64,000 bases of DNA, from contig NZ_JAPEPX010000001.1 in assembly GCF_026339935.1 (NCBI RefSeq), forward strand, positions 4,583,501 through 4,647,500, in the 5' to 3' direction. Made by a program: the position numbers and the translations under genes. How positions within the stretch are numbered: position 1 is the first letter of the stretch; each line of letters begins with the position of its first letter. This document shows, piece by piece, positions 3,855-59,479 of the stretch. This DNA is from Streptomyces sp. NBC_01551. Lineage in GTDB: Bacteria; Actinomycetota; Actinomycetes; Streptomycetales; Streptomycetaceae. The notes beneath the pieces were generated by a model. It was given only the letters and a program-made list of their open reading frames with translations, made no database searches and was not told the DNA's origin.

Positions 3855-4934
3855 ATGTTCGAGGCGGTCGAGGAACTGATCGGCGAGCACGCCGATCTTG
3901 AGAAGAAGCTCGCCGACCCTTCGGTCCACTCGGATCAGGCCAACGCGCGCAAGCTCAACAAGCGCTACGCGGAGCTGACCCCGATCGTCGCGACCTTCCG
4001 TGCCTGGAAGCAGTCCGCCGAGGACATCGAGACGGCCAAGGAGTTCGCGGCCGACGACCCCGACTTCGCGGCCGAGGTCAAGGAACTGAGCGCGCAGCGC
4101 GAGGAGCTCACCGAGAAGCTCCGCCTGCTGCTCGTTCCGCGCGACCCCAGCGACGACAAGGACGTGCTCCTGGAGGTCAAGGCCGGCGCGGGCGGCGACG
4201 AGTCCGCCCTGTTCGCGGGCGACCTGCTGCGCATGTACCTGCGCTACGCCGAGCGCGTGGGCTGGAAGACCGAGATCATCGACGCCACCGAGTCCGAGCT
4301 CGGCGGCTACAAGGACGTCCAGGTCTCCGTCCGCACCAAGGGCGGCAACGGTGCGACCGAGCCCGGCCAGGGCGTCTGGGCCCGCCTGAAGTACGAGGGC
4401 GGCGTGCACCGCGTCCAGCGCGTTCCGGCCACCGAGTCGCAGGGCCGCATCCACACCTCCGCCGCCGGCGTGCTCGTCACCCCGGAGGCCGAGGAGGTCG
4501 AGGTCGAGATCAACATGAACGACCTCCGCATCGACGTGTACCGCTCCTCCGGCCCCGGCGGCCAGTCCGTCAACACCACCGACTCGGCCGTGCGCATCAC
4601 GCACATCCCGACCGGTGTGGTCGCCTCCTGCCAGAACGAGAAGAGCCAGCTCCAGAACAAGGAGCAGGCCATGCGCATCCTGCGCTCGCGCCTGCTGGCC
4701 GCCGCCCAGGAAGCCGCCGAGCAGGAGGCCTCCGACGTGCGCCGCAGCCAGGTGCGCAGCGTGGACCGCTCCGAGAAGATCCGTACGTACAACTACCCGG
4801 AAAACCGGATCTCGGACCACCGGACCGGCTTCAAGGCGTACAACTTGGACCAGGTGCTCGACGGGGACCTCGACCCGGTCATCCAGGCTTGCGTCGACAC
4901 CGACTCCGCCGCCAAGCTCGCGGCCGCGCACTGA
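3855..4934 (+). CDS. prfA: Peptide chain release factor 1
   Basis: Recognises UAA and UAG stop codons in the ribosome and triggers peptide release. The 359 residues match the family length. The stop-codon-reading tripeptide PAT is at 191-193 and the catalytic GGQ loop is at 235-237 ([10 protein letters not shown]). The Gln of GGQ is the residue methylated by PrmC, whose gene follows 43 bases later. The ATG at 3855 is preceded by AGGAG; the frame stays open upstream but that part is not conserved. Confidence 0.97.
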
Positions 4935-4977
4935 CCCTCGCTCCACCCCCCGTACGACAGCAGCCCGGAGGACCAGC

Positions 4978-5823
4978 GTGAACTTGCTGCTTGCCGAGGT
5001 GGCCCAAGCCACCCAGCGGCTGGCCGCCGCCGGCGTGCCCTCACCGCGCTTCGACGCGGAGGAGCTCGCCGCCTTCGTGCACGGCGTCAAACGGGGGGAA
5101 CTGCACCACGTCAAGGACACGGACTTCGACGCCCGCTACTGGGAGGCCGTCGCCCGCCGCGAGGCGCGCGAGCCGCTCCAGCACATCACCGGCCGCGCCT
5201 TCTTCCGGTACCTGGAACTCCAGGTCGGGCCCGGGGTGTTCGTGCCCCGGCCCGAGACCGAGTCCGTCGTGGACTGGGCCATACACGCGGTCCGGGCGAT
5301 GGACGTCGTCGAGCCGATGATCGTGGACCTGTGCACCGGCTCGGGCGCCATCGCGCTGGCCATGGCGCAGGAGGTGCCGCGCTCGCGCGTGCACGCCGTC
5401 GAGCTGTCCGAGGAAGCGCTGCGGTGGACCCGCAAGAACGCCGAGGGCTCGCGGGTCACCGTCCACCAGGGTGACGCGCTCAGCGCGCTGCCCGAGCTGG
5501 ACGGCCAGGTCGACCTCGTCATCTCGAACCCGCCGTACATCCCGCTCACCGAGTGGGAGTACGTCGCCCCCGAGGCCCGCGACCACGATCCGGAGATGGC
5601 GCTCTTCTCCGGCGAGGACGGCCTCGACACCATCCGCGGCATCGAGCGCACCGCGCACCGGCTGCTGCGGCCCGGCGGCATCGTCGTCATCGAGCACGCC
5701 GACACCCAGGGCGGCCAGGTGCCGTGGATCTTCGCCGAGGAACGCGGCTGGGCCGACGCGGCCGACCACCCGGACCTCAACAACCGCCCGCGCTTCGCGA
5801 CCGCCCGCAAGGCCCTGCCGTGA
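4978..5823 (+). CDS. prmC: Release factor glutamine methyltransferase PrmC (HemK)
   Basis: Uses S-adenosylmethionine to N5-methylate the Gln of the GGQ motif in release factors. 281 residues: N-terminal helical release-factor-binding part (about 1-85), then a Rossmann methyltransferase with the SAM loop [10 protein letters not shown] (117-126) and the substrate-glutamine motif NPPY (184-187). The start is GTG with CCGGAGGA just upstream. It lies directly after its substrate gene prfA, a widely conserved pairing. Confidence 0.95.
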
Positions 5824-53557: not shown

Positions 53558-54067
53558 GTGCCCAAGCCGCTCAGTCTCCCCTTCGACCCCATCGCCCGCG
53601 CCGACGAGCTCTGGCAGCAGCGCTGGGGGCCGGTGCCCTCGATGGCCGCCATCACCTCGATCATGCGCGCGCACCAGATCCTGCTCGCCGAGGTCGACGC
53701 GGTCGTCAAACCGTACGGACTGACCTTCGCGCGGTACGAGGCGCTGGTGCTGCTCACCTTCTCCAAGGCCGGTGAGCTGCCGATGTCGAAGATCGGCGAG
53801 CGCCTGATGGTGCACCCGACCTCGGTGACGAACACGGTGGACCGGCTGGTCCGCTCCGGCCTCGTCGACAAGCGCCCCAACCCGAACGACGGGCGCGGCA
53901 CCCTGGCCTCCATCACGGACAAGGGCCGCGAGGTGGTCGAGGCGGCCACCAAGGACCTGATGGAGATCGACTTCGGGCTCGGTGCGTACGACGAGGAGGA
54001 GTGCGCGGAGATCTTCGCGCTCCTGCGCCCCCTGCGGGTGGCCGCCGCCGACTTCGAGGAGAAGTAG
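53558..54067 (+). CDS. MarR-family regulator, AbsC-like
   Basis: 169 residues: winged helix with LTFARYEALVLLTFSKAGELPMSKIGERLMVHPTSVTNTVDRLVRSGLVDKRPNPNDGRG. By gene neighbourhood it corresponds to S. coelicolor absC, a MarR regulator tied to zinc and antibiotic production (from memory). The start is GTG at 53558. The following DUF3817 gene has its own promoter. Confidence 0.87.
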   Translation: MPKPLSLPFDPIARADELWQQRWGPVPSMAAITSIMRAHQILLAEVDAVVKPYGLTFARYEALVLLTFSKAGELPMSKIGERLMVHPTSVTNTVDRLVRSGLVDKRPNPNDGRGTLASITDKGREVVEAATKDLMEIDFGLGAYDEEECAEIFALLRPLRVAAADFEEK

Positions 54068-54121
54068 CGGGAGCGGGAGAGGTGGGGGAGCGGCCGAGCA
54101 GCCGAAGTCACCCGGCCCCAC

Positions 54122-54152
54122 GTCAAGATCGCGCAAAACGGACGGCTAGGCT
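54122..54152 (+). promoter_or_regulatory. Promoter of the second DUF3817 gene, probably leaderless
   Basis: GTCAAGATCGCGCAAAACGG (54122-54141) is the copy of the 48528 motif. TAGGCT (54147-54152) is a good -10 box. It ends seven bases before the ATG, so transcription would start at or next to the start codon, giving a leaderless mRNA. Confidence 0.6.
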
Positions 54153-54159
54153 CGTTCGC

Positions 54160-54489
54160 ATGAAACGAAGCGTGCTGACCCGCTACCGCGTCATGGCCTA
54201 CGTGACGGCGGTCATGCTCCTGATCCTCTGTGCCTGCATGGTGGCGAAGTACGGCTTCGACACCGGCGCCGACCTGACCTTCGCGGTCTCGCAGGCCCAC
54301 GGTGTGCTGTTCATGATCTACCTGGTGTTCGCCTTCGACCTGGGCTCCAAGGCGAAGTGGCCGTTCGGCAAGCTCCTGTGGGTCCTCCTGTCGGGCACGA
54401 TCCCGCTGGCCGCCTTCTTCGTCGAGCGCACGATCCGCGCCGAGGTCGAGCCGCTCGTCGAGGGCGGCCTGGCCACCGCCAAGGCCTGA
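54160..54489 (+). CDS. DUF3817 membrane protein (copy 2)
   Basis: 109 residues with three membrane helices (about 10-29, 40-60 and 70-88) and the family signature AHGVLFMIYLVFAFDLGSKAKWPFGK. Paralogue of the gene at 48,593; both follow the same promoter motif. The ATG at 54160 has no ribosome site but sits at the predicted transcription start. Confidence 0.85.
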   Translation: MKRSVLTRYRVMAYVTAVMLLILCACMVAKYGFDTGADLTFAVSQAHGVLFMIYLVFAFDLGSKAKWPFGKLLWVLLSGTIPLAAFFVERTIRAEVEPLVEGGLATAKA

Positions 54490-54518
54490 CCCCTCAGCCC
54501 TCCCCGGGCACTCCCACC

Positions 54519-54548
54519 CGAAGCCCGTCGCAGCAGCGGCGGGCTTCG
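54519..54548 (+). terminator. Terminator after the second DUF3817 gene
   Basis: CGAAGCCCG (54519-54527) pairs with CGGGCTTCG (54540-54548), 30 bases beyond the stop. The remaining 258 bases before the next gene hold GC-rich palindromes but no identifiable gene; they are presumably the leader of the wall-hydrolase gene. Confidence 0.7.
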
Positions 54549-54806
54549 TCGTGTTCGAGCTCAGCAGGGCTGGACGGCTTGGGCCAGGACCGGATTCGGC
54601 CAGTGGGAAGGCCTGGATCCGCCCCCGATCGACGGCGAAGATCTTCACATCGGCAGCGAGGAGCGGCCGAGGGAACCGGGACCGGCGCCACCGCGGGGCG
54701 CCCCTGGATCCGTGGTCCGGGGCACGTGTGACCGGGCCGCTCGGGGCTCCGTAGAGCCCACCGCTCCGCCTTCCCACCACTCGTGCTCAACCTTCGGGGG
54801 TTCCTC

Positions 54807-56108
54807 ATGCCTGCTTTCGGGCGCCTGGCCGCACTGACGGCCGCCGCGGCGGTCAGTTCTTCCGTCATCGTCTTCGCCGGCTCCACGTCCGCCACCGCGG
54901 CCAGTGTCGCCACCTGGGACAAGGTCGCCCAGTGCGAGAGCTCGGGGAACTGGGCGATCAACACGGGCAACGGCTACTACGGCGGTCTGCAGTTCTCCCT
55001 CTCCACCTGGCGGGCGTACGGCGGCTCGACGTACGCCTCCTACCCGCACCAGGCCACGAAGAAGGAGCAGATCCTCACCGCGGAGAAGGTGCTGGCCGGT
55101 CAGGGCCCCGGGGCCTGGCCCAGCTGCGGGCGCTCGGCCGGGCTCGGCAGTGACCACGCCAACCCCTACCCCGAGGCGCCGAAGCCGCAGACGCCGGCCG
55201 CGTCCTGGAAGTCGCAGGTGCTGGTCGAATCCGGTGGCGGGCTGTTCCACGCGACGCGGTTCGACAACGGGACGTGGACGCGGTTCGGCAACGTCCTCGG
55301 CGAGACGACCGTACCGGGCGGGGTGCGGTCGATCTCCGAGGCGGGCATCGACGGGGACACCCACGTCCTGGCGGTCGGCAACGACGGGAAGCTCTTCCAC
55401 AGCGTCAGGTCCGCCGACCGGACCTGGACCGCTTTCGGCAACGTCCACACGGCGGCGGGCGCCCTGACGAACGTCACCCAGGTGACGTCGGCGTCGATCG
55501 GCGGCGACCTGCACGTGGCCGTGGTGGCGGACGGCTCGGTCTACCACACGGTCCGGTACGCGAACGGTACGTGGGCGCCGTTCGGCAAGGTCGACCAGCC
55601 CGGCGGCGGCGCGGTCACCAAGGTGGCGATCGCCCGTACCGGCAACGACCTCCAGGTCGTGGCCCTGAGAGGCGGGGTGCTCCAGCACACCGTCCGCACC
55701 TCGGACGGGAACTGGACGGCGTGGGGCAACGCCTCGGCCGAGTCGGGCGCGGCGGCGGCCGGGATCACGTCGATCGACGACGTCGCGGTGGCCGGCACCG
55801 GTGCCGGTGACCTCCAGCTGGTGGTGACCGCGAACGGCGGCACGAAGCAGTTCCACGGCGCCCGCTACGGCAACGGCACCTGGACCGGCTTCAACGACCT
55901 GGGTTCCGTGTTCCCGGGCGTCACCGTCACCGACGTCGCGGCAGCGGCGGTCAACAACGAGATGCAGGCGGCGTTCGTGACGACCGACGGCCGGGTCCTG
56001 CACACGATCCGCCACACCGACGCCACCTGGACGGCCGCGGGCTCCGTGGACCTGGCCGGTGTCAGCGGCGACCACACCGGCATCGCCATCACCGCCACCT
56101 ACAACTGA
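54807..56108 (+). CDS. Secreted Rpf-type transglycosylase with C-terminal beta-propeller
   Basis: 433 residues. Signal peptide to about 32. The resuscitation-promoting-factor domain (34-108) has the catalytic Glu44 (AQCESSGNW) and its disulphide-forming Cys; it cleaves glycan strands of peptidoglycan during germination and growth. Residues 133-433 are six repeats of about 45-52 residues with the pattern HxxR(x5)W(x3)G, read as a beta-propeller, possibly lectin-like. The ATG at 54807 follows GGGGG; GTG 54783 is an alternative. The propeller is shared with the next gene. Confidence 0.9.
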
Positions 56109-56143
56109 CCGGCTCGCACACCACACGCTTCGGGGGGAATCCC

Positions 56144-57640
56144 ATGTCCGTCACCACCCTCACCACCGTCAGCCGTCGAGCCGTGTCGTCCGCGACCGGT
56201 CTGGTACTCGCGGCCACCGGCCTCGTCGCCTTCGCGGCGTCCCCTTCCTACGCCGCGGGGCCCACGTACCAAATGCCCTTCGGCTGCGGCCAGTCGTGGC
56301 TCGGCAGCACCCGCGCCGGGCACAGCCCCTCCACGCTGGCGATCGACTGGACGCACGGCGGGAGCACCCACGGCCAGCCGGTGCTCGCCAGCGCCGACGG
56401 CACCATCAGCATCGCGGACACGCTGACCAACTCCGACGGTTCGTACCGCAGTTACGGCAAGTACGTCGTGATCGACCACGGCGGCGGCTGGAAGACCCTG
56501 TACGCCCACCTCGACGACTACAACGTCACGGAGGGCGCGCGGATCTCCCGCGGCCAGCAGATCGGCCACGTCGGCAACACCGGCAACTCCAGCGGAGCGC
56601 ACCTGCACTACGAGCAGAAGTACGACGGGCAGGTCAAGCAGGCCACCTTCAACGGCAGCCCCTTCAACACGGGGAACCTGACCAGCAAGAACTGCGACAC
56701 CGCGCCGGAGCAGCCGCCGGCCGCGCCGAAGCAGTGGCGGGCCCAGGTCGCGGTGGAGTCCGGCGGCGGGATCTACCACGGCGTCCGCAATGCCGACCGT
56801 ACGTGGACCGCGTTCGGCGACGTGGAATCGCAGGGCGGGGAAGTCCCCACCGGGGTGCGGTCGATCTCCGAGTCGGGCATCGACGGGGACACCCACGTCC
56901 TGGCGGTCAGCAACGAGGGCAAGCTCTACCACACCATCCGGTTCGCCGATCAGTCGTGGGGCGGCTTCCGCGATGTACACGCCGTCGCGGGGCCGTTGAC
57001 GAACGTCACGCAGGTGACGTCGGCGTCGATCGGCGGTGATCTGCACGTCGCGGTGGTGGCGGACGGCTCGGTCTACCACACCATCCGGTACGCGAACGGT
57101 ACGTGGGCGCTGTTCGGGAAGGTCGACCAGCCGGCCGGGGGTGCGGTCACGAAGGTGGCGATCGCCGGTTCGGGCTCGAACCTCCAGATGGCCGCGCTGA
57201 CCGGCGGGGTGCTCCAGCACACCGTCCGCAAGGCGGACGGCAGCTGGACGGCGTGGGGCAACGTCTCCGTCGAGACGGGCGCCGCGGCGGCCGGGATCAC
57301 CTCCATCGACGACGTCGCCCTCGCCTCGACCGGTGCCGGTGACCTCCAGCTGGTGGTGGCCGCGAACGGCGGCACCAAGCAGTTCCACGGCGCCCGCTAC
57401 GGAAACGGCACCTGGACCGGCTTCAACGACCTGGGCTCCGTGGTCTCCGGCGTGACCGTGACCGACGTCGCCGCGGCGCAGGTGGACGGCGAGATGCAGG
57501 CCGCGTTCGTCGCCACCGACGGCCGGATCCTGCACACGATCCGCCACACCGACGGCACCTGGTCGGCCGCGGGCTCCGTGGACCTGACCGGCGTCAGCGG
57601 CGACCACACCGGCATCGCGATCACCGGCACCTACAACTGA
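56144..57640 (+). CDS. Secreted M23 metallopeptidase with the same C-terminal beta-propeller
   Basis: 498 residues. Signal peptide to about 38. LytM/M23 domain (about 45-180) with zinc/catalytic residues His60 and Asp68 (HSPSTLAID), His122 (YAHLD) and His153-x-His155 (GAHLHYE). Such enzymes cut peptide cross-links of peptidoglycan. After a Pro-rich linker, residues 198-498 are the six-blade propeller nearly identical to the preceding gene. The gap to the upstream gene is only 35 bases, so they are probably co-transcribed. Confidence 0.92.
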   Translation: MSVTTLTTVSRRAVSSATGLVLAATGLVAFAASPSYAAGPTYQMPFGCGQSWLGSTRAGHSPSTLAIDWTHGGSTHGQPVLASADGTISIADTLTNSDGSYRSYGKYVVIDHGGGWKTLYAHLDDYNVTEGARISRGQQIGHVGNTGNSSGAHLHYEQKYDGQVKQATFNGSPFNTGNLTSKNCDTAPEQPPAAPKQWRAQVAVESGGGIYHGVRNADRTWTAFGDVESQGGEVPTGVRSISESGIDGDTHVLAVSNEGKLYHTIRFADQSWGGFRDVHAVAGPLTNVTQVTSASIGGDLHVAVVADGSVYHTIRYANGTWALFGKVDQPAGGAVTKVAIAGSGSNLQMAALTGGVLQHTVRKADGSWTAWGNVSVETGAAAAGITSIDDVALASTGAGDLQLVVAANGGTKQFHGARYGNGTWTGFNDLGSVVSGVTVTDVAAAQVDGEMQAAFVATDGRILHTIRHTDGTWSAAGSVDLTGVSGDHTGIAITGTYN

Positions 57641-57654
57641 CCGATCAGCCGATG

Positions 57655-57686
57655 AGGGCCCGGGACGAAAATCCGTCCCGGGCCCT
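57655..57686 (+). terminator. Rho-independent terminator after the hydrolase pair
   Basis: AGGGCCCGGGACG (57655-57667) pairs perfectly with 57674-57686 and is followed by TTTG, the most classical terminator in the window. Confidence 0.85.
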
Positions 57687-57747
57687 TTGTGCTGGTCAGG
57701 GCGGTGCGCACGGGCCGGCGGCGGACTGCCGGAGGTTTGCCATCGAC

Positions 57748-57771
57748 ATTTACTAGGACGTCCTAGTAAAT
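57748..57771. promoter_or_regulatory. Perfect 24-bp palindrome at the icmA start
   Basis: ATTTACTAGGAC is followed directly by its exact reverse complement, ending seven bases before the ATG. A repressor bound there would block both promoter and ribosome access. It differs from the palindrome upstream of the neighbouring tetR gene, so the regulator may lie elsewhere. Confidence 0.8.
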
Positions 57772-57778
57772 TCGAAGC

Positions 57779-59479
57779 ATGGATGCTGACGCCATCGAGG
57801 AGGGCCGCCGCCGCTGGCAGGCCCGTTACGACAAGGCCCGCAAGCGTGAGGCCGACTTCACCACTCTCTCCGGCGATGCCGTCGATCCGGTCTACGGGCC
57901 CCGGCCCGGCGACGCGTACGAGGGCTTCGAGCGCATCGGGTGGCCGGGTGAGTACCCGTACACCCGAGGGCTGCACGCCACCGGCTACCGGGGGCGGACC
58001 TGGACCATCCGGCAGTTCGCCGGGTTCGGGAACGCCGAGCAGACCAACGAGCGCTACAAGATGATCCTGGCCGCCGGCGGTGGCGGGCTCTCCGTCGCCT
58101 TCGACATGCCGACCCTCATGGGGCGCGACTCCGACGACCCCCGCTCGCTCGGCGAGGTCGGCCACTGCGGGGTCGCCATCGACTCCGCCGCCGACATGGA
58201 GGTCCTGTTCAAGGACATCCCGCTCGGTGACGTGACCACCTCGATGACGATCTCCGGGCCCGCCGTGCCCGCCTTCTGCATGTACCTGGTCGCCGCCGAG
58301 CGGCAGGGCGTGGACCCGGCCGTGCTGAACGGCACGCTCCAGACCGACATCTTCAAGGAGTACATCGCCCAGAAGGAGTGGCTCTTCGAGCCCGAGCCGC
58401 ACCTTCGCCTCATCGGCGACCTCATGGAGTACTGCGCCAAGGGCATCCCGGCGTACAAGCCGCTGTCCGTCTCCGGCTACCACATCCGCGAGGCCGGGGC
58501 CACGGCCGCGCAGGAGCTCGCGTACACCCTCGCCGACGGCTTCGGGTACGTCGAGCTCGGCCTCTCGCGCGGCATGGACGTGGACGTCTTCGCGCCCGGC
58601 CTGTCCTTCTTCTTCGACGCGCACCTCGACTTCTTCGAGGAGATCGCCAAGTTCCGCGCCGCCCGCCGGATCTGGGCGCGCTGGATGAAGGAGGTCTACG
58701 GGGCCAAGAGCGACAAGTCGATGTGGCTGCGCTTCCACACCCAGACCGCCGGCGTCTCGCTGACCGCGCAGCAGCCCTACAACAACGTCGTGCGCACCGC
58801 CGTCGAGGCGCTGGCGGCCGTCCTCGGAGGCACGAACTCGCTGCACACCAACGCCCTCGACGAGACCCTCGCGCTGCCGAGCGAGCAGGCGGCCGAGATC
58901 GCCCTGCGCACCCAGCAGGTGCTGATGGAGGAGACCGGCGTCGCCAACGTCGCCGACCCGCTGGGCGGCGCCTGGTACGTCGAGCAGCTCACCGACCGCA
59001 TCGAGGCCGACGCCGAGAAGATCTTCGACCAGATCAAGGAGCGCGGCCTGCGCGCCCACCCGGACGGGCAGCACCCGATCGGGCCGATCACCTCGGGCAT
59101 CCTGCGCGGCATCGAGGACGGCTGGTTCACCGGCGAGATCGCCGAGTCGGCCTTCCAGTACCAGCGTTCGCTGGAGAAGGGCGACAAGCGGGTCGTCGGC
59201 GTCAACGTCCACCACGGCTCGGTCACCGGCGACCTGGAGATCCTCCGGGTCAGCCACGAGGTGGAGACCGTACAGGTACGCGAACTCGCCGCCCGCAAGT
59301 CCCGGCGCGACGACGCGAAGGTCACGGCGTCGCTCAAGACCATGCTGGAGGCCGCGCGGGACGGGTCGAACATGATCCCGGCCATGCTGGACGCGGTCCG
59401 GGCCGAGGCGACCCTCGGCGAGATCTGCAACGTGCTGCGCGACGAGTGGGGCACGTACACGGAGCCGCCCGGCTTCTAG
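57779..59479 (+). CDS. icmA: Isobutyryl-CoA mutase large subunit
   Basis: Adenosylcobalamin-dependent interconversion of isobutyryl-CoA and n-butyryl-CoA, supplying valine-derived carbon to polyketides. 566 residues, the known IcmA length. The substrate pocket has Phe80 and Gln198, where methylmalonyl-CoA mutases have Tyr and Arg, which distinguishes the two (literature knowledge). No B12-binding DxHxxG domain is present; it should sit on a separate small subunit, not in this window. No ribosome site is evident before the ATG at 57779, which follows the 24-bp palindrome. Confidence 0.94.

Follow-up and report, generated by a model that had tools for sequence, protein, structure and literature searches.

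A 64,000-nucleotide window of the genome of Streptomyces sp. NBC_01551 contains two adjacent genes, encoding a secreted Rpf-like transglycosylase and a secreted M23 endopeptidase, which end in the same kind of C-terminal domain, modelled as a six-bladed propeller. Sequence comparison indicates that this shared domain has been kept alike through gene conversion and not through recent duplication, and structure models together with profile matches make the propeller probably a sugar-binding lectin. The reading proposed here, to which we give an even chance, is that of a secreted, lectin-addressed set of wall hydrolases whose address domain is homogenised by conversion.

An earlier note on this DNA had described the two genes in this order and on this strand, with one domain common to both C-termini, and this description holds: Pfam models PF06737 and PF01551 fall on the N-terminal parts, and the last ~300 residues (about 55203-56105 and 56729-57637) are homologous, with an expectation value (E) of 1.1e-148 in a search of the own genome, where no further copy of the shared propeller was found beyond these two at E 0.001. 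The near identity once ascribed to the two halves proved to be an overstatement, since the propellers alone are 78% identical in protein and 82.6% in DNA, and a local alignment that includes the linker has 242 identical residues out of 322 aligned pairs (75%; 81% in DNA). From blade 1 to blade 6, the identity of the Rpf and M23 copies is 0.51, 0.65, 0.94, 0.75, 0.90 and 0.84.

Gene conversion is indicated because the grouping of blades 3-6 follows the genome or clade, blade 1 still sets Rpf apart from M23 and CHAP, and identical tracts of up to 638 base pairs (bp) occur in relatives. The trees were built from 19 sequences of seven genomes in four clades, leaving out L037, L049, L050, L051 and L089 of the identity matrix (they belong to other dyads or are copies that are partial or single). 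Clades A and B had been defined from pairwise identities, so that their recovery in the tree is not independent, while the tests of enzyme clades are. Over blades 3-6, identity is 0.90-0.94 between copies of one genome (17 pairs) and 0.59-0.69 between copies on the same enzyme in different clades (43 pairs), whereas in blade 1 it is 0.62 within a genome and 0.75 for the same enzyme between clades. Differences at fourfold degenerate sites of blades 3-6, obtained for the six genomes with DNA, are 0.15-0.23 within a genome versus 0.38-0.53 for the same enzyme between clades; blade by blade, the within-genome values are 0.36, 0.29, 0.19, 0.16, 0.15 and 0.23. The tree of residues 130-200 places all seven Rpf sequences on one side (support 100/100) and the M23 and CHAP sequences together on the opposite one. 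All four clades reappear in the tree of residues 220-433 (98/96 to 100/100); in this part Rpf as a clade is rejected with p 4e-39 and M23 as a clade with p 1e-57, and the copies group per genome in S. antimicrobicus, S. bambusae and S. goshikiensis, and partly in the clade of G038, NBC_00249 and G466.

Identical tracts were tested in 11 of the 14 within-genome pairs with DNA, using 2000 codon shuffles for each. The longest measure 638 bp between Rpf and M23 of S. antimicrobicus, 302 bp between Rpf and CHAP of NBC_00249 and 279 bp between M23 and CHAP of G038, none of them reached in any shuffle; overall, the observed length was reached by 0 of 2000 shuffles in six pairs, by 1, 16, 39 and 63 in one pair each, and by 806 in the focal pair. 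There, the identical stretch formerly claimed around 55481-55550 resolves into separate runs of 26, 29 and 27 bp, and the longest run is 35 bp, no longer than chance (codon-shuffled mean 33.9 bp); because so many shuffles attain it, run length gives no evidence of exchange in this pair. The NlpC-Rpf dyads of Kitasatospora aureofaciens and Streptomyces sp. CBMA291 are unhomogenised, with 56-60% identity within a genome and 81-87% when one enzyme is compared across genomes; their longest tracts were equalled in 1298 of 2000 shuffles in one dyad and in 18 of 2000 (28 bp) in the other, so slight exchange may have occurred in these as well. The ratio of nonsynonymous to synonymous substitution rates (dN/dS) in blades 3-6 is 0.36-0.51 in five comparisons between distant clades and 0.10-0.41 in seven close ones, and in the catalytic domains of distant clades it is 0.11 and 0.24 for Rpf, 0.63 and 0.52 for M23 and 0.30 for CHAP; clear diversifying selection was not seen in these comparisons.

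Both C-terminal domains contain six HxxR...W repeats and a closing strand, from which a propeller had been predicted; AlphaFold2 agrees, giving six blades in both the Rpf and the M23 protein, with most values of the predicted local distance difference test (pLDDT) above 90, and one propeller is indeed common to a cutter of glycan and a cutter of peptide. The catalytic part of Rpf was modelled poorly (pLDDT below 50, mixed alignment). In Foldseek searches with the focal propeller, lectins of the PLL family came first (E 1.5e-13) and AAL second. By sequence, the focal propeller alone found no match among PDB sequences at E up to 1, but a profile of 16 sequences matched the CV39L lectin (E 1.1e-5), and P0063, a distant member of the family, matched PLL4 (E 2.3e-14); weaker profile matches to a GH59 chain (0.037) and to RCC1 (0.12-0.14) were taken as chance. 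The NCBIfam beta propeller lectin model NF052348 scores the two proteins at 50.9 and 38.8 bits, under its curated cut-off of 200. A third match of this model in the same genome, at C1:3310981 (L045:3849-6698), belongs to a protein that looks papain-like by eye and has a different propeller with a weak match to the lectin model.

The excerpts available of PMC6943638 and PMC5584973 describe the PLL/PHL lectins of Photorhabdus and CV39L, which are the best Foldseek matches and share the repeat register at weak sequence homology, as seven-bladed, whereas the focal models have six blades. By a register inferred from these repeats, the positions that would correspond to the paired aromatics of the PLL-type hydrophobic site were counted in 57 of 64 homologues (another comparison of homologues used 50). 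For blades 1-5, at least 36 of the 57 sequences have Tyr, Phe or His at the first position and at least 43 have Phe, Trp or Tyr at the second; for blade 6, 1 of 57 has such a residue at the first position. The polar galactose site of PLL/PHL lectins is not retained in the focal sequence. The six-bladed fucose lectins of AAL type share 12-15% identity with the focal propeller and were not matched by sequence, even with E allowed up to 1.

The search for the propeller on other catalytic domains, suggested in the earlier note, was fruitful, with CHAP, NlpC/P60-like and S1-like carriers among the 64 homologues. S1-like domains are the partner in 20, M23 in 14, Rpf in 11, NlpC/P60-like domains in eight and CHAP in six; the five others were left unassigned by the script, and one of these, P0036, is labelled CHAP by Pfam. 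The S1-like domains look dead, with Thr or Ala at the Ser195 position in 20/20 and His57 in none of the 18 readable sequences, and P0042, the one S1-like carrier compared with solved structures, matches 8w20_C (E 1.2e-47), a chain of the umbrella-toxin entry 8W20. The propeller family of the focal proteins is thus also carried by 20 homologues with an UmbA-type, apparently dead trypsin domain. UmbA has an N-terminal trypsin-like adaptor, and the focal proteins instead have hydrolase domains of active type, Rpf and M23. In the portions available of PMC11062931 and PMC13274773, UmbA lectins serve Streptomyces umbrella toxins as address arms. According to the accessible text of PMC13274773, some of them are six-bladed propellers, and their ligands are polymers in the wall of the Streptomyces that is targeted; for two of the six-bladed lectins, the wall polymers recognised in target species are teichuronic-acid-like (PMC13274773, PMC11062931, in part). 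The same partial text of PMC13274773 locates the binding sites of UmbA4 on blade 4 and between blades 5 and 6; by analogy, and if the blade numbering corresponds, these would be among the blades homogenised here.

In the focal genome, no UmbA-type trypsin domain was found at E 0.001, and no ALF repeat (UmbC) scored above the cut-off (best 19.6 bits versus 25.4, with 150 of 230 candidates scored), so that the module there occurs only on wall hydrolases; G038 and NBC_00249, conversely, hold both hydrolase and S1-like carriers. Wall hydrolases with this lectin are not described in the available parts of the umbrella-toxin papers (PMC13274773, PMC11062931), and the open-licence literature, among the matches listed, has nothing on propeller-bearing Rpf, M23 or CHAP proteins or on gene conversion acting on the domains with which they bind. 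The Rpf and Swl hydrolases of S. coelicolor usually have LysM and other accessory domains. These hydrolases, to whose enzyme class the focal Rpf belongs, have a role in spore wall turnover, and the excerpts of the paper describing them (PMC5693915) do not mention a propeller.

The module is accessory within the genus. A cut-off of E 1e-40 finds it in 22 of 392 genomes of the genus, among them G333, which agrees with S. bambusae in the lengths of its reading frames; at E 1e-20 it is in 18 of 293 order genomes and two of nine genera. Besides the focal genome, nine of the 22 were classified: hydrolases together with an S1-like carrier occur in G038 and G173, wall hydrolases in G083 and G185, and S1-like carriers only in G015, G074, G077, G075 and G167. 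Among 72,556 plasmid records, 10 match, three of which are S. xanthophaeus plasmids with an M23-propeller gene; on one of these, NZ_CP108630.1 (L093), this gene (4318-5568) lies near RICIN-domain and phospholipase A2 genes. An origin from phages was rejected (0 matches in 50,697 phage records).

Rpf, M23 and CHAP proteins, in this order and each with the propeller, are encoded as a triad in G038, NBC_00249 (also G173), S. antimicrobicus and S. bambusae (read as DNA), and all three propeller proteins are present in S. goshikiensis, its Rpf and CHAP entries being on contigs of equal length. S. bambusae shares the neighbourhood of the focal locus (MFS, MarR, triad, mutase, TetR, thioredoxin-like), its CHAP gene standing between the M23 and mutase genes. 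The focal locus is without a CHAP gene, the only CHAP match of the genome lying elsewhere, and G466 also lacks one, while its near relatives G038 and NBC_00249 retain it; the simplest reading is that of two independent losses. In other clades the set stands at different loci, and in NBC_00249, Isolate_45 and G466 it adjoins a polysaccharide cluster with a WcaF-type acetyltransferase and, as read in G466, a WcaI-like glycosyltransferase and a tyrosine-autokinase-like protein. A conserved membrane protein (L088:10243-11766), polymerase-like by eye and without a Pfam or NCBIfam match, adjoins the tandem in three relatives; its homologue is present in 62 of 199 genus genomes and lies ~42 kilobases downstream in the focal one. 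In NBC_00435 (L037), a CHAP-like and an Rpf protein with the propeller, 83% alike, adjoin Rpf and CHAP-like proteins that are devoid of it.

In the proposed mechanism, Rpf and M23 here, and CHAP in relatives, would carry the same six-bladed lectin-type propeller, which would dock each enzyme onto a wall glycopolymer of a streptomycete; the docked enzymes would then open peptidoglycan at that place through different bonds, presumably acting jointly and being co-transcribed, and conversion between the tandem genes would overwrite blades 3-6 and leave one binding surface per genome. This surface differs by ~35% between clades. That the target is the wall of other streptomycetes comes near to an even proposition, and the producer's own wall is a substantial but lesser possibility; we lean slightly to attack because the module is accessory, varies in its locus, occurs on plasmids and is common to the address arms of toxins. 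In its strongest form, that of an antibacterial lysin battery in which cutters of glycan strands and peptides and a CHAP enzyme share an umbrella-toxin-type address for a competitor's glycopolymer, all re-addressed together by conversion when one changes, the attack reading is unlikely. Wall remodelling of the producer itself, with the propeller binding its own polymer or exopolysaccharide and holding Rpf and M23 at growing or germinating walls, is a serious candidate that we hold somewhat doubtful, though only slightly less probable than attack. It agrees with the slower germination of S. coelicolor Rpf and SwlA mutants (PMC5693915, as excerpted), with the polysaccharide cluster beside the genes in three genomes and with the downstream homologue of the neighbouring membrane protein; that neighbour is, however, weak evidence, as nearly a third of the genus genomes surveyed have the protein and relatedness confounds its position, and a rare and patchy module at shifting and plasmid loci does not resemble a core function of the wall. 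A scaffold that binds protein, either a partner or, as an inhibitor, its own enzyme, would be an alternative to a lectin of any target, but it is improbable, given that Foldseek and profile searches favour lectins and that the remaining large group of carriers consists of UmbA-like proteins, which end in lectin domains.

As to the origin of the likeness, two results weigh against the proposed reading and lowered our confidence in it. In residues 130-200, M23 as a single clade has p 0.017, M23 and CHAP being unseparated; and in residues 220-433 the focal copies are unpaired, the M23 copy being nearer to the S. goshikiensis copies than to the focal Rpf copy (99/96). Both focal copies are placed with the S. 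goshikiensis ones; for the focal genome, homogenisation shows at clade level only, and exchange in the focal lineage is, as judged from these trees, older than in its relatives. The earlier note had invoked a recent duplication or conversion; conversion is upheld by the trees and by the long tracts in relatives, not by runs in the focal pair. A recent tandem duplication of the propeller in the focal lineage, which two similar adjacent copies might suggest, is very improbable, since the same arrangement with a third enzyme exists in four other, divergent genomes, and it is contradicted by the first-blade region, in which all seven Rpf sequences unite. Homogenisation may also be a neutral consequence of having tandem sequences similar enough to recombine, with the common surface not selected, and this stands only a little under an even chance: synonymous and protein similarity increase together within a genome, and exchange, measured at fourfold sites, peaks in the middle of the stretch and fades at its edges, as edge decay predicts. 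It leaves unexplained, however, the presence of one module on three or more unrelated hydrolases, and the two NlpC-Rpf dyads have stayed unhomogenised, though their copies are perhaps too divergent to recombine.

The features of the locus are collected in the table. The Rpf gene is taken from its ATG, while the longest open reading frame starts at GTG 54783. Its product scores 118.2 bits against PF06737 (gathering cut-off 27) and aligns with RpfE of Mycobacterium tuberculosis (4cge, E 3.2e-24), including its QCES motif and the glutamate in it, which we take to be catalytic; the NCBIfam equivalogs Rpf and RpfC give 105.2 and 97.6 bits, below their cut-offs of 180 and 200. The M23 protein scores 86 bits against PF01551 (gathering cut-off 28.7). 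HLH is present in its domain, and the first His/Asp motif, beyond the Pfam match, has a spacing unlike HxxxD, the usual first zinc motif of M23 peptidases.

Table. Features of the Rpf-M23 tandem, in positions of the window
Feature	Position	Strand	Basis
Rpf-like secreted transglycosylase gene, 433 residues	54807..56108	+	PF06737, residues 32-107, E 2.5e-34
Rpf catalytic domain	54900..55127	+	Pfam match, residues 32-107
Predicted six-bladed propeller of Rpf protein, residues 133-433	55203..56105	+	AlphaFold2, pLDDT mostly >90 from residue 127
Blades 3-6 and closing strand of Rpf copy (homogenised part), residues 220-433	55464..56105	+	identities, fourfold sites, trees
Intergenic gap, 35 nucleotides	56109..56143	+	sequence; purine-rich stretch 5' of M23 ATG by eye
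M23 secreted endopeptidase gene, 498 residues	56144..57640	+	PF01551, residues 75-163, E 2e-24; PDB M23 matches
M23 domain by Pfam match	56366..56632	+	profile positions 11-92 of 96; first zinc motif outside match
Predicted six-bladed propeller of M23 protein, residues 197-498	56732..57637	+	AlphaFold2
Blades 3-6 and closing strand of M23 copy (homogenised part)	56996..57637	+	identities, fourfold sites, trees
Hairpin with short T run, probable transcription terminator, 34 nucleotides	57654..57687	+	fold of 57641-57700, -44.1 kcal/mol, z -7.0

Lying head to tail on the forward strand, the two genes likely form one transcription unit. A consensus scan of the region gave no terminator-like site, despite the strongly folded hairpin 3' of the M23 gene, and no promoter-like site 5' of Rpf, the single one of the region preceding the mutase gene; searches for riboswitches and RNA families in 54000-58000 returned only two matches, to unrelated families and far under the gathering scores. 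From their translations, the flanking genes were labelled MFS- and MarR-like upstream and acyl-CoA-mutase-like downstream. A perfect 24-nucleotide palindrome at 57748-57771 ends 7 nucleotides 5' of the mutase ATG (57779), overlaps the promoter-like hexamers and is kept 5' of the S. bambusae mutase; it is probably the operator of a regulator.

The tandem joins two fields, that of wall hydrolases, commonly regarded as working on the wall of their producer, and that of umbrella-toxin lectins, which choose target species by their wall glycopolymers. If the propeller binds such a polymer, the role of accessory Rpf-type enzymes of Streptomyces, in growth or in attack, would become directly testable. 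The set also offers a natural case in which conversion keeps a binding domain alike across different chemistries, while blade 1 and the catalytic domains remain distinct; and should the reading as a lysin battery be true, recombination would be a synchroniser of target specificity.
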